Assembly (NCBI GenBank): GCA_028283245.1
Contig: JAPYNU010000077.1
Location: 1-37,258 of the forward strand
DNA length: 37,258 nucleotides
Origin: Candidatus Aldehydirespirator catecholifindens
GTDB taxonomy: Bacteria > Actinomycetota > Acidimicrobiia > Acidimicrobiales > Aldehydirespiratoraceae
Direction: 5' to 3'
Shown: in pieces, positions 15,655 through 18,687 of the stretch
How positions within the stretch are numbered: the first letter of the stretch is position 1
How the letters are laid out: every line of letters starts with the position of its first letter
Made by a program: the position numbers and the translations under genes
Notes under the pieces: model-generated
What the model saw: only the letters and a program-made list of their open reading frames with translations
Databases searched by the model: none
Told to the model about the DNA's origin: nothing

Positions 15655-16149
15655 ATGACCGCGATAGCTGAAGGAGCAAGGCCAGCCACTGCTGACGACA
15701 AAGCGGATCTGGCTGAACTGGCTGAACTGGCCGCCGGGGAACTGGCGCTGCTGCGCGGAGGTGCCGTGTGGTCGCAGCTGGAGGCGCGTTCAGCACCACA
15801 TTCTGAGAGCCTGAGCCGCGACATAGCCGATGACGAAGCCTTAGTCGTGGTTGGTGTCATAGACGATGCTGTGGTCGGCTACGGAGCGGTTCGGTTGGTG
15901 AAACTCCACGACGGGACACATCTAGGCCGCATCAGCGACATTTATGTGCTACCTGAGGCTCGTGGCGTGGGAGTGGGCGAGGTCATGATGGATCTGTTGA
16001 TGGCATGGGCCAGCGAGCAAGGCTGCATCGGTGTGGACAGCCTGGCGCTGCCGGGAGATCGCAACACCAAGAACTTTTTTGAGACACACGGCTTAGTAGC
16101 TCGTGCAATCATCGTGCATCGCTCGCTGCTTCCGAAACAATCTGCGTAA
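15655..16149 (+). CDS. GNAT-family N-acetyltransferase
   Basis: 164 residues. The acetyl-CoA pyrophosphate loop is YVLPEARGVGVGEVMMDLLMAW (about 97-118; R/Q-x-x-G-x-G/A as RGVGVG at 103-108), preceded by the beta-4 segment LGRISDIYV. The C-terminal NTKNFFETHGL is the usual motif D/B region. It transfers acetyl from acetyl-CoA to an unknown amine. It follows the acidic-protein gene by 75 bases on the same strand, and its 3' end overlaps the 3' end of the convergent Arg-rich gene by 41 bp. No strong Shine-Dalgarno is visible before the ATG. Confidence 0.8.
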   Translation: MTAIAEGARPATADDKADLAELAELAAGELALLRGGAVWSQLEARSAPHSESLSRDIADDEALVVVGVIDDAVVGYGAVRLVKLHDGTHLGRISDIYVLPEARGVGVGEVMMDLLMAWASEQGCIGVDSLALPGDRNTKNFFETHGLVARAIIVHRSLLPKQSA

Positions 16150-17671
16150 GCGGGGGAGCGGCCGCAGCTTCAGTTTCATCCGGCAACTCAGTTTGACCTG
16201 CAACTTTGGTTTGATCTGGCAACTCGGTAGCAGCTTCAGGTTTGGCGGAAGGCTTATCTGGTGTTTGAGTTGTTACGCCGAACAGTTTCGCTATCTGAGG
16301 CACCCGAGGTGCTAGACGGCGAACAGAAGCCAGCAGTTCCTCACCTGGCTTGGCAGGAATGCCAGCAGGGATCACCTTGGCGCGCACAGGAGACAACGAC
16401 ACAGCATCCATCACCGTCGCCCAGCGCTGCTGGTTGGTTTCGTCGTTCAAATCCGACGCTGCCAGCGCCGTAAGCCGCTCAGCCATGTCCACTGGAAGCG
16501 GGGTACCGGCTTTTGGAGGCCATGAACTGAGTCGCAGTGCTCGGATAGTGCGTCCATCGCTGATGGTTGCAGCAAGCTCATCAAGCCATTGTCGCTGATC
16601 TGCCTCAAGACGGTCAGCGAAACCGTCGTTGAGGCTTGCGGCTAGGGCTCGGGTTTCGTCTGTTCGAGCGGCTCGATCCGCCGCAGCGATTACCGAGCGA
16701 ATCTCACGCAAGTCGACTGTGGCAATTCCTGCTAGAGCCGCTTCGGCCCGATCTCGCCATTCAGCGGCTTTCAGCACCGGGGCAAGTTGTTCGGCTAGCG
16801 CCAAAAGAGGCTCAGCTTTGATCTGGGGAAGTTTGGCATCGACTGCTTTTGCGTTCATGCGCTCAATAGAGTTGCGCACTCGTGGAACACCGCCGTTAAG
16901 CACTTCGCGAGCGAGTGGCTGCTGCTCAGTTGGCAGAGCCTTCAAAGCGGCTTGACGATGCACTCTCTTGGGCTTGAGGCTTGGTCCTCTCGGCCGGGCA
17001 GGTCGTGTGGAACGCTCCGAGCGATGTTTGTCATGGTGGTTGCGACGCTCGCCGGTGTTCTTTGAGCTGCGACCGCCACCCTCGGCGCGTCCAGATGCGA
17101 TCGATTCTCTGCGGGGTTTGCGACGGTCTCGCTGGTCTCTGCGGTCGCGATTGCGGCGTTTCGTTGAATCGCGGTCGCCCGAGGTGTCATCAGCATCGGC
17201 TTGGCGTCTGCGCTTTTTTCCTTGACGCTTGGCTTGCCGTCGATCATCGTCAGCATCAAAAGAATCATCTTCATCGTCGAAGCCGCGATCTTTGCGACTA
17301 CGGCGGCGAGTTTTGGGTGCCAGTTTGGTGGTAACCGCCGGAGCGCTTGAAGTCTGGATCAGCGTCAGGCGATCTGTCGGCTCGGGACGGACCTTGGGTT
17401 CCATCACCAAAATGATCTCCAAGCCGTCAAGCCCAACTTCGGCTTCGGCTTTGAGCACGCTGCCGACAGCAGCTGAAGCAGGAAGCAGCTCAGCGCGGAC
17501 TTCACCCTTGGGTTGACGAGCGCCAGCGGCACGCCAAGTCCAAGTGTCGTCGTCGCGACGGCTTGTGAGTTCAATGTCTAGTCGCCTTGACACCGCCCAC
17601 AACGCTACACGGTTAGCCGACAGTGCTTGCTTTGTGCGCGTTCTGGGTCCGCTTTGGTGCTGTGCCAACAA
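16109..17671 (-). CDS. unrecognised Arg-rich protein with three-part architecture
   Basis: 520 residues from a TTG; starts further in (e.g. near residue 24-27) are possible. Residues ~1-115 look like a small globular beta-rich domain (LDIELTSRRDDDTWTWRAAG). Residues ~120-245 are a highly charged linker rich in Arg, Asp, Lys and Ser with repeated RRD/RDR patterns, like RNA-binding tails of RNase E-type proteins. Residues ~250-480 are Ala-rich and helical. The last 50 residues contain a short repeat, TELPDQT and TELPDET. I do not recognise the family. RNA binding is an inference from composition. It lies downstream of thiD on the same strand, separated by 194 bp of repeats. Confidence 0.55.
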   Translation of the reverse strand: MLAQHQSGPRTRTKQALSANRVALWAVSRRLDIELTSRRDDDTWTWRAAGARQPKGEVRAELLPASAAVGSVLKAEAEVGLDGLEIILVMEPKVRPEPTDRLTLIQTSSAPAVTTKLAPKTRRRSRKDRGFDDEDDSFDADDDRRQAKRQGKKRRRQADADDTSGDRDSTKRRNRDRRDQRDRRKPRRESIASGRAEGGGRSSKNTGERRNHHDKHRSERSTRPARPRGPSLKPKRVHRQAALKALPTEQQPLAREVLNGGVPRVRNSIERMNAKAVDAKLPQIKAEPLLALAEQLAPVLKAAEWRDRAEAALAGIATVDLREIRSVIAAADRAARTDETRALAASLNDGFADRLEADQRQWLDELAATISDGRTIRALRLSSWPPKAGTPLPVDMAERLTALAASDLNDETNQQRWATVMDAVSLSPVRAKVIPAGIPAKPGEELLASVRRLAPRVPQIAKLFGVTTQTPDKPSAKPEAATELPDQTKVAGQTELPDETEAAAAPPLTQIVSEAASDAR

Positions 17672-17719
17672 CAGGGAACGATCCTATTCCTGCTATTCGT
17701 AAAGCGCCTGAAATCTACA

Positions 17720-17800
17720 TTATGTAAAGTTGTATCAGTTTTCAGGCAGGGCTCAAAGAGGCTTATGTAAAGTTGTATTAGTTTCCGAGTAGGGCTCAAA
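17720..17800. repeat. two imperfect direct repeats, 38 bp with 43-bp period
   Basis: Copies at 17720-17757 and 17763-17800 are identical at 33 of 38 positions; each begins TTATGTAAAGTTGTAT and ends AGGGCTCAAA, and most differences are transitions. They fill the gap between thiD and the Arg-rich gene (both minus strand), which otherwise holds no gene. They are AT-rich compared with their surroundings. Confidence 0.6.
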
Positions 17801-17865
17801 TGTGGCACCGGGTCGGGGTCAGTGAGGTCTGGCCGGCGAGGCCGGGTGAGTGAACTGCCAGAAAG

Positions 17866-18687
17866 TTATAGAGGCTTCTGGGTGGAGTGCAGATGTGATA
17901 CCGGACCGGGGCCATCAAATTGCCAGTCTGCTGCGTCTTGGATAGCGCAGCGAGCGAACGCTGCTGCCGCGTTCACGGCATCTGTAAGACAGCGACCCAA
18001 AGCGAACTCAACTGCCAGCGCAGCCGAGAAAGTGCAGCCACTGCCTCTGACATTGCGAGTCTGGATGCGCTGGTTTTCTATGACCCAAGCATCTCCATCG
18101 GCGGGGATCACCACATCGTCAGGTTTGTCATCAAAGGCACCACCTGTGACCACCACCGCCTCAGCGCCCAGTTCACGAAACACTTCAGCGCAGCCGATAA
18201 CAGCCTCAGGTCCTGGCAGCGGCTGGCCTGCAAGCAATTCTGCTTCGCGGCGGTTGGGTGTGATAGCTCTCGCCAACGGGAACAACTGCTTGCGATAAGC
18301 GTCACGGGTCTGTTGATCCACGAACGCAGAGCCCCGCCCATCAACCATCACTGGATCAATCACTGGTGGTGGCAGATCTCCGCCCATAACCCTCTCAGCC
18401 ACTAGCTCCACCACTTCGCGGCGTCGCAGCAGACCGGTTTTCACTCCTGACACACCCAGAGATGAAATCACCGAGTCGATCTGCTCCGCTACCAAATCCA
18501 CATCAACCGACTGAAGAGCTGTGACCGCTGAGAGTGACTGTGCGGTCACAGCAGTAAGAGCGCAGGCACCGTGAACCCCGAGAGCGGCGAAGGTGGACAG
18601 ATCGGCTTGCACTCCTGCCCCACCGAGAGGATCCGAAGCGGCTATTGTGAGAAGCACCGGCGGCATGGTTGAGGTCATGATCGTCAA
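17866..18687 (-). CDS. thiD: hydroxymethylpyrimidine/phosphomethylpyrimidine kinase
   Basis: 273 residues, normal ThiD length; it phosphorylates HMP and HMP-P in thiamine biosynthesis. The N-terminal LTIAASDPLGGAGVQADLSTFAALGVHG is the family signature, ITPNRREAELLAG and the C-terminal ATP-site GSGCTFSAALAVEFALG are present. The start may be TTG at 18687 overlapping the upstream TGA, ATG at 18678 or ATG at 18666; ATG 18678 is preferred. It is the last gene of the long hisI-trp run, tightly joined to the flavoprotein gene. Its final codons (17890-17914) resemble an intergenic repeat at 17797-17821. Confidence 0.92.
   Translation of the reverse strand: MTIMTSTMPPVLLTIAASDPLGGAGVQADLSTFAALGVHGACALTAVTAQSLSAVTALQSVDVDLVAEQIDSVISSLGVSGVKTGLLRRREVVELVAERVMGGDLPPPVIDPVMVDGRGSAFVDQQTRDAYRKQLFPLARAITPNRREAELLAGQPLPGPEAVIGCAEVFRELGAEAVVVTGGAFDDKPDDVVIPADGDAWVIENQRIQTRNVRGSGCTFSAALAVEFALGRCLTDAVNAAAAFARCAIQDAADWQFDGPGPVSHLHSTQKPL

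Follow-up and report, generated by a model that had tools for sequence, protein, structure and literature searches.

Repeated XerD arms with their outer flank at a putative chromosomal dif site beside thiD, and similar arrays elsewhere in the order

The nearest described system to the locus reported here is the chromosomal dif site, at which XerCD and FtsK resolve chromosome dimers, as set out for E. coli, B. subtilis and Frankia (PMC3025954). Chromosomal dif is commonly regarded as 28 bp standing on their own. According to the account of Xer recombination in PMC5357621, it is XerD, activated by FtsK, that cuts first, and cleavage by a tyrosine recombinase produces a 3' phosphotyrosyl end where the arm meets the central region. 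Two further systems are close enough to be compared, the modified dif sites of GGI and LME-1, described as whole sites of 22–28 bp that flank an element, and the plasmid resolution sites cer and psi. The accessory DNA of cer and psi binds PepA and ArgR or ArcA. Here we analysed a stretch of 37,258 nucleotides (the window) from Candidatus Aldehydirespirator catecholifindens, in which a preliminary description had pointed to direct repeats next to thiD and to a resemblance between these repeats and the end of the gene.

A putative dif site beside thiD

The features of the window discussed below are:
16109–17671, minus strand: conserved next gene on the same strand as thiD, with no Pfam match at E 0.001
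17703–17730, plus strand: putative dif, AGCGCCTGAAA-TCTACA-TTATGTAAAGT, placed by its best match to published sites (XerC arm 17703–17713, 6-bp centre 17714–17719, XerD arm 17720–17730)
17720–17757, plus strand: copy 1 in the repeat alignment, the XerD arm of dif with its outer flank
17763–17800, plus strand: copy 2, a second XerD arm (17763–17773) with the same flank as copy 1
17797–17822, minus strand: relic of the thiD 3' end, reading DPDPVPHL...
17829–17845, minus strand: possible thiD terminator hairpin found by eye, with a 6-bp stem and no T run
17856–17915, minus strand: copy 3, the present thiD end and the bases after its stop, with a degenerate start resembling the XerD arm
17866–18687, minus strand: thiD, phosphomethylpyrimidine kinase (PF08543, 222.7 bits; stop codon 17866–17868)

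The repeat sequence TTATGTAAAGTTGTAT starts with the XerD arm of dif, a point that the preliminary description missed. Arms and centre were delimited by aligning the site with 28-bp dif sites from the literature, and seven such sites as printed in PMC3025954 and PMC2731167 were used for comparison. Position 17703 on the plus strand was the best of 74,462 window positions for six of the seven, with 18–20 identities in 28, while the seventh, from Anaeromyxobacter, preferred another window position. A matrix made from these seven published sites scored 23.3 at 17703 and 9.1 at the next place.

The pattern CTTTACATAATGTRNATTTC, allowed up to 2 mismatches, matched exactly once in each of 35 of 149 genomes (one of these matches, L064 in G034, is doubtful as dif), and its reversed control gave one match across all 149. 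Within the genus, 15 of 16 genomes matched, and the genome of the window held a single copy even at up to 3 mismatches; in a smaller set of relatives the match was found in 9 of 11 genomes, once in each. The core adjoins different genes in different families, and the named records with the same dif (67 stretches) are mostly MAGs assigned to Acidimicrobiales, Acidimicrobiia or Acidimicrobiaceae.

Along the window, cumulative G-C skew reaches its maximum at 17911, 0.2 kb from the putative dif; the skew is weak to the left of the site (+0.02 over 10 kb) and −0.05 to the right. The window's own assembly is divided into 104 contigs, and the distance to dnaA was taken from relatives, namely the four of the nine matching genomes in the smaller set that have both dif and dnaA on one contig. 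The shorter arc amounted to 0.43 (G018), 0.44 (G022), 0.49 (G054) and 0.43 (G059) of the contig, the G059 contig being smaller than the whole genome and the dif of G054 and G059 being matched with 3 mismatches; dif lies roughly opposite dnaA in those four relatives. The own assembly also encodes two PF00589 tyrosine recombinases, best matched by the XerD and XerC models, with scores below the equivalog cut-offs (326.3 of 329.6 and 291.7 of 335.15) and above the PRK00283 subfamily cut-off. By every criterion of sequence and position that could be tested, 17703–17730 looks like a chromosomal dif.

Several other readings were tried and rejected, namely an RNA element (no Rfam family above threshold in the window; fold z-score of −0.93), a tRNA-linked integration site (the window holds no tRNA) and a regulon operator (the core is single-copy per genome). 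Tandem promoters for the gene at 16109–17671, with TTGAGC/TACAAC-like boxes, were likewise rejected, as the promoter scan found none and the core in other families is not tied to this gene. Its protein, which has a charged middle, was matched at 22 of 30 loci (at five of them only about 1 kb downstream) and had no match at eight, and the relatives favour a start near 17602 (TTG) or 17593 (GTG), not 17671.

Repeats between the putative dif and the end of thiD

The two 38-bp direct repeats were found as first described, at 17720–17757 and 17763–17800, with 33 of 38 positions identical and a start-to-start distance of 43 bp; all five differences are transitions, and a 5-bp GAGGC stands between the copies. 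It had also been claimed that 17797–17821 matches 17890–17914 at 19 of 25 positions with transition differences only. This is true of the 25 bp, which differ by six transitions, but not of the whole, because the similarity at the 93-bp offset extends to 17763–17822 versus 17856–17915, where 37 of 60 positions are identical, 16 differ by transitions and seven by transversions. The longer similarity therefore defines three related segments, beginning at 17720, at 17763 and at about 17856, the last at the end of thiD. Both reported similarities are beyond chance: the best 25-bp self-match in 17690–17920 was 22, against 19 for the largest shuffle, and that in copies 2 and 3 alone (17763–17920) was 19, a value reached by none of 1,000 dinucleotide shuffles (largest 18).

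Copy 2 repeats the XerD arm without the remainder of dif. The dif centre is absent beside its arm (0 of 6 positions) and no good XerC arm follows, centre and XerC arm together agreeing at 3 of 17 positions; read as an entire dif, copy 2 has a matrix score of 6.5. The outer arm and its five adjoining bases are identical in copies 1 and 2 (16/16), compared with 17/22 for the remainder, and the arm-like start of copy 3 agrees with the XerD arm at 6 of 11 positions, counted on the alignment. No XerD-like sequence was seen where the 43-bp unit of the window ends on its outer side. By their sequence, the window repeats arose by local duplication of the XerD arm of dif and its outer flank. The simplest history involves two duplications, an older one at the 93-bp offset that carried the thiD end and a younger one of 43 bp. 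We noticed, in addition, an 8-bp inverted repeat, GCCTGAAA/TTTCAGGC, at 17706–17713 in the XerC arm and 17740–17747 in copy 1. Of the five positions at which copies 1 and 2 differ, four are grouped at 17740–17747, as if template-switched from the XerC arm.

For the resemblance to the end of thiD, the preliminary description offered either a duplication of part of the thiD tail or a mobile repeat element that supplied the ThiD ending, and quoted the peptide DPDPVPHLSPTRKL, which is indeed present in the window. ThiD was searched in 81 genomes including that of the window, 59 of which had a match, and C-termini were compared at 20 loci, again including the window's. All 13 same-genus proteins compared carry GPGPVSH followed by variable residues. 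The window's ThiD ending up to that point (GPGPVSHLHSTQKPL) is thus ancestral, and the intergenic DPDPVPHL is the decayed copy of the ancestral tail, which supports the duplication. An ancestral ending also argues that no mobile element supplied it. The further copies that a mobile element or dispersed repeat would leave were likewise sought in the own assembly (2.59 Mb in 104 contigs, 93% complete), where the exact 16-mer occurred at the two repeat places only; with 3 mismatches it matched three more places, compared with six for the reversed control pattern. A comparison of the 231-bp region with the same genome gave eight other matches, none of them convincing (best E 0.28 over 24 bp), and the mobile-repeat reading was therefore rejected.

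A ACTTTACATAATGTAGATTTCCGGCGG-like sequence lies 18–215 nt downstream of the thiD match in 12 of 13 same-genus relatives; G003 is the exception, with the sequence about 0.85 kb away on the opposite side of thiD. In G003 (L016), where the arrangement of thiD and dif departs from that of the other members of the genus, the palindrome GAACATATGTTC stands downstream of thiD, ahead of a different gene, and resembles a LexA-type SOS box. The thiD frame ends at a TAA within the XerD arm in G014 (L019) and G015 (L021), and in G001 (L028), after one in-frame TGA in the match, it continues through dif into the next gene. The hairpin at 17829–17845 was absent from the list given by the terminator scan.

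XerD-arm arrays in other genomes

A search of 397 genomes from the order for two exact copies of TTTACATAA 20–50 bp apart returned four (that of the window, G216, G245 and G369), with no match for the reversed control, and in all four a dif-like centre and XerC arm follow the inner TTTACATAA. In G216, three arms stand in 31-bp units that are almost the same, with the flank repeated at 30 of 31 positions; L131, which was found by the dif pattern alone, is apparently the same record. In G245 and G369, members of one genus, a portion of the frame next to dif, extending as far as the XerD arm, is repeated with gaps, the repeated stretch of G245 including the start of the adjacent frame, and their relative G196 is without the insert. 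Given that the flank is copied along with the arm in the window, in G216 and, with gaps, in G245 and G369, duplication is indicated rather than convergence.

A survey of the G245 genus added two arrays: G796 has three arms, the outer two 17 bp apart and at distances of 29 and 46 bp from that of dif, and G267 has an array with a unit of 13 bp, in a region whose assembly is poor. Variant outer arms were seen in G304, G797 and G286 (TTGACATAA in G304 and G286, or one mismatch). The arm given for Frankia dif in PMC3025954 resembles the TTGACATAA outer arms. A looser pattern matched 3 of 396 genomes of the phylum (that of the window, G538 and G458); no flank repeat could be seen in G538 or G458, and outside the order this phylum search yielded nothing convincing. 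As judged from these comparisons, XerD-arm arrays at putative dif sites recur elsewhere in the order, in a small number of lineages, although the array finding is built on few cases.

In the survey of the G245 genus, a dif-like core was present in 18 of 22 genomes, with three matches in G196 and two each in G245 and G221. The two in G221 (L191 and L195, on C1 at 1,920,053 on the minus strand and 2,666,055 on the plus strand) are 0.75 Mb apart in opposite orientation and are built as D arm, centre and TTCTCAACG; one of them may be Xer-exploited. The further matches L193, L194 and L196, in G196 and G245, have 3 mismatches (TTTACATAA, centre, TTCTC), and flanking sequence common to L194 and L196 suggests a repeated element.

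For counting, second dif-like sites in their genomes (L193–L196) were excluded beforehand and identical dif surroundings were merged, which gave 101 distinct dif loci, 97 of them with full flanks (four were dropped). The motif TTKACATAA, with up to 1 mismatch and within 100 bp of dif, occurred on the XerD side at 10 loci in direct and four in inverted orientation, and on the XerC side at one locus and none, respectively; 200 shuffles gave means of 1.2–1.6 and largest values of 5–6. An exact second TTTACATAA arm was present on the XerD side in direct orientation at 6 of the 97 loci and in none of the three control classes, leaving 91 without. The six loci (L001, L131, L168, L169, L176 and L189) belong to three families and have unrelated flanks. 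They are partly ascertained, since L001 is the window itself, the double-arm search supplied L168 and L169, and L176 and L189 belong to a genus picked because of G245; only L131 was found by the dif pattern alone. The spacings of the exact arms are 13, 31, 43, 46, 58, 59 and 62 bp.

The similarity to dif ends at the first centre base in all 8 exact outer arms, which represent five distinct structures, with 0–2 of 6 centre positions matching beside them. For independent structures whose ends fell with equal chance at the junction or anywhere in the 6-bp centre, the chance of all five stopping at the junction would be about 6e-5. In G796, one sub-repeat boundary lies inside the arm, between TTTA and GCCATAGC, and repeat ends inside the arm would mostly escape the arm search. 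A survey of 84 loci by best self-matches of 24-bp anchors ending in the XerD arm gave 23 (L131), 22 (L001), 18 (L168) and 17 (L169), with at most 15 at 77 other loci; anchors on the XerC side gave at most 16 in 79 loci, and control anchors one perfect match (L018) and otherwise at most 15 in 78 loci. The L018 match (G004) is a perfect tandem repeat between dif and the next gene, with a 67-bp spacing, and contains GTTCGCTGCGCTCACGGGCCACTCAGG. Its position away from the arms indicates that tandem repeats near dif are not special in themselves, and what stands out in the arrays is the junction boundary, not repetition.

The 9-mers of the XerC arm, with up to 1 mismatch in the same 97 loci, were found in direct orientation at four loci on the XerC side and six on the XerD side, with 0 and 1 in the other classes (shuffle means 1.0–1.5, largest 4–5). 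The six on the XerD side exceed the largest shuffle, 4. Five of these (L109, L120, L129, L133 and L135) have one local sequence in common, and so they were not counted as arrays.

Origin of the arrays and comparison with known systems

We propose, with a probability of roughly one half, that the arrays are scars of XerD activity, that is, of XerD-provoked tandem duplication at the outer XerD edge of dif. A XerD cut at the junction of the XerD arm and centre would leave flank and XerD arm as a 3' end, which might occasionally join the flank some tens of bp further out, at a nick, at a weak XerD site or at a microhomology, on the sister or the same molecule. The product would read flank–XerD arm, flank–XerD arm, centre, XerC arm, in which dif remains whole while the outer arms would decay. 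The outer XerD edge of dif would in this way be a small duplication hot spot, and here the thiD tail would have been copied too. On the strand that runs from flank through XerD arm and centre to XerC arm, such a 3' end coincides with the end of the repeated unit, which favours XerD-provoked duplication, and the direct orientation, the XerD side, the junction boundary and the repeated flank are all in its favour. Against it stand the few cases, the biased sample, the in-arm boundary of G796, the poor assembly of G267, the GAGGC spacer, the window unit's outer end without XerD likeness, the L018 repeat, the 91 of 97 loci that have no exact second arm and the phylum search, which yielded no convincing case beyond the order.

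The main rival, replication slippage in AT-rich terminus DNA with XerD uninvolved, is a realistic if doubtful account. As dif must stay single, duplications that take in the centre and XerC arm would be lost, and the survivors would merely seem to end at the junction. The units are indeed short (13–59 bp), a short TAA similarity is present at the outer end of the G245 unit, and the perfect repeat of L018 lies near dif with the XerD arm uninvolved. Selection for a single dif, however, permits ends within the 6-bp centre, yet none of the 8 exact outer arms shares even the first centre base, and an exact second arm was never found on the XerC side or inverted.

Two further explanations attribute the side and shape of the arrays to other causes. 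The extra arms may have been selected as accessory half-sites to which XerD binds and from which it would be loaded onto dif or positioned there. Consistent with this are the identical side and orientation in all arrays, the preservation of the window's outer arm with its five neighbouring bases relative to the rest of the repeat, and the likeness of the outer arms of G304 and G286 to the published Frankia arm; but the arm is lacking at most loci, its spacing is variable and it is absent from close relatives such as G196, which makes such selection unlikely. The scar of a lost XerCD-integrated mobile element (IMEX), already disfavoured, is very improbable. Although Xer-using elements are known to integrate at dif, according to PMC5357621 and PMC9765430, and some genomes of the G245 genus carry further dif-like matches, such a scar should retain a centre beside the outer XerD arm, and none is present (0 of 6 positions in the window). 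An IMEX scar, moreover, need not copy host flank, yet the thiD tail in the window and the start of the adjacent frame in G245 are repeated, and the five neighbouring proteins in the Pfam scan are not of element type.

A broader reading, for which we put the odds somewhat short of even, is that XerD, by cutting at dif, makes arrays of its own half-site, copies the ends of neighbouring genes and perhaps supplies accessory XerD-loading sites. The recurrence of XerD-arm ladders with their ends at the point where XerD should cut suggests that dimer resolution can scar DNA, and that the scars can reach neighbouring genes, as with thiD in the window and the start of the neighbouring frame in G245. 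If real, the ladders would be a genome-readable record of XerD misfiring, open to testing with E. coli in the laboratory, and would call for care in programs that search for dif. A literature search outside most subscription journals and preprints returned no report of tandem XerD half-sites at dif.

In comparison with chromosomal dif as published, the site in the window has the same 28 bp arranged as 11-6-11, an XerD arm of TTATGTAAAGT, a single copy, a position at the shift in skew and two Xer recombinases, and by its sequence the dif of this lineage is a further member of the known XerCD site class. It differs from the dif sites of those accounts by a second XerD arm and the relic of a third outside its XerD arm, in direct repeat. 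The modified dif sites described for GGI and LME-1 likewise have a second, imperfect Xer site near dif, whereas in the window only the XerD arm and host flank are repeated and no element was seen. The cer and psi sites likewise have extra DNA on one side of the core; in contrast to their protein-binding accessory DNA, that of the window consists of further XerD arms.
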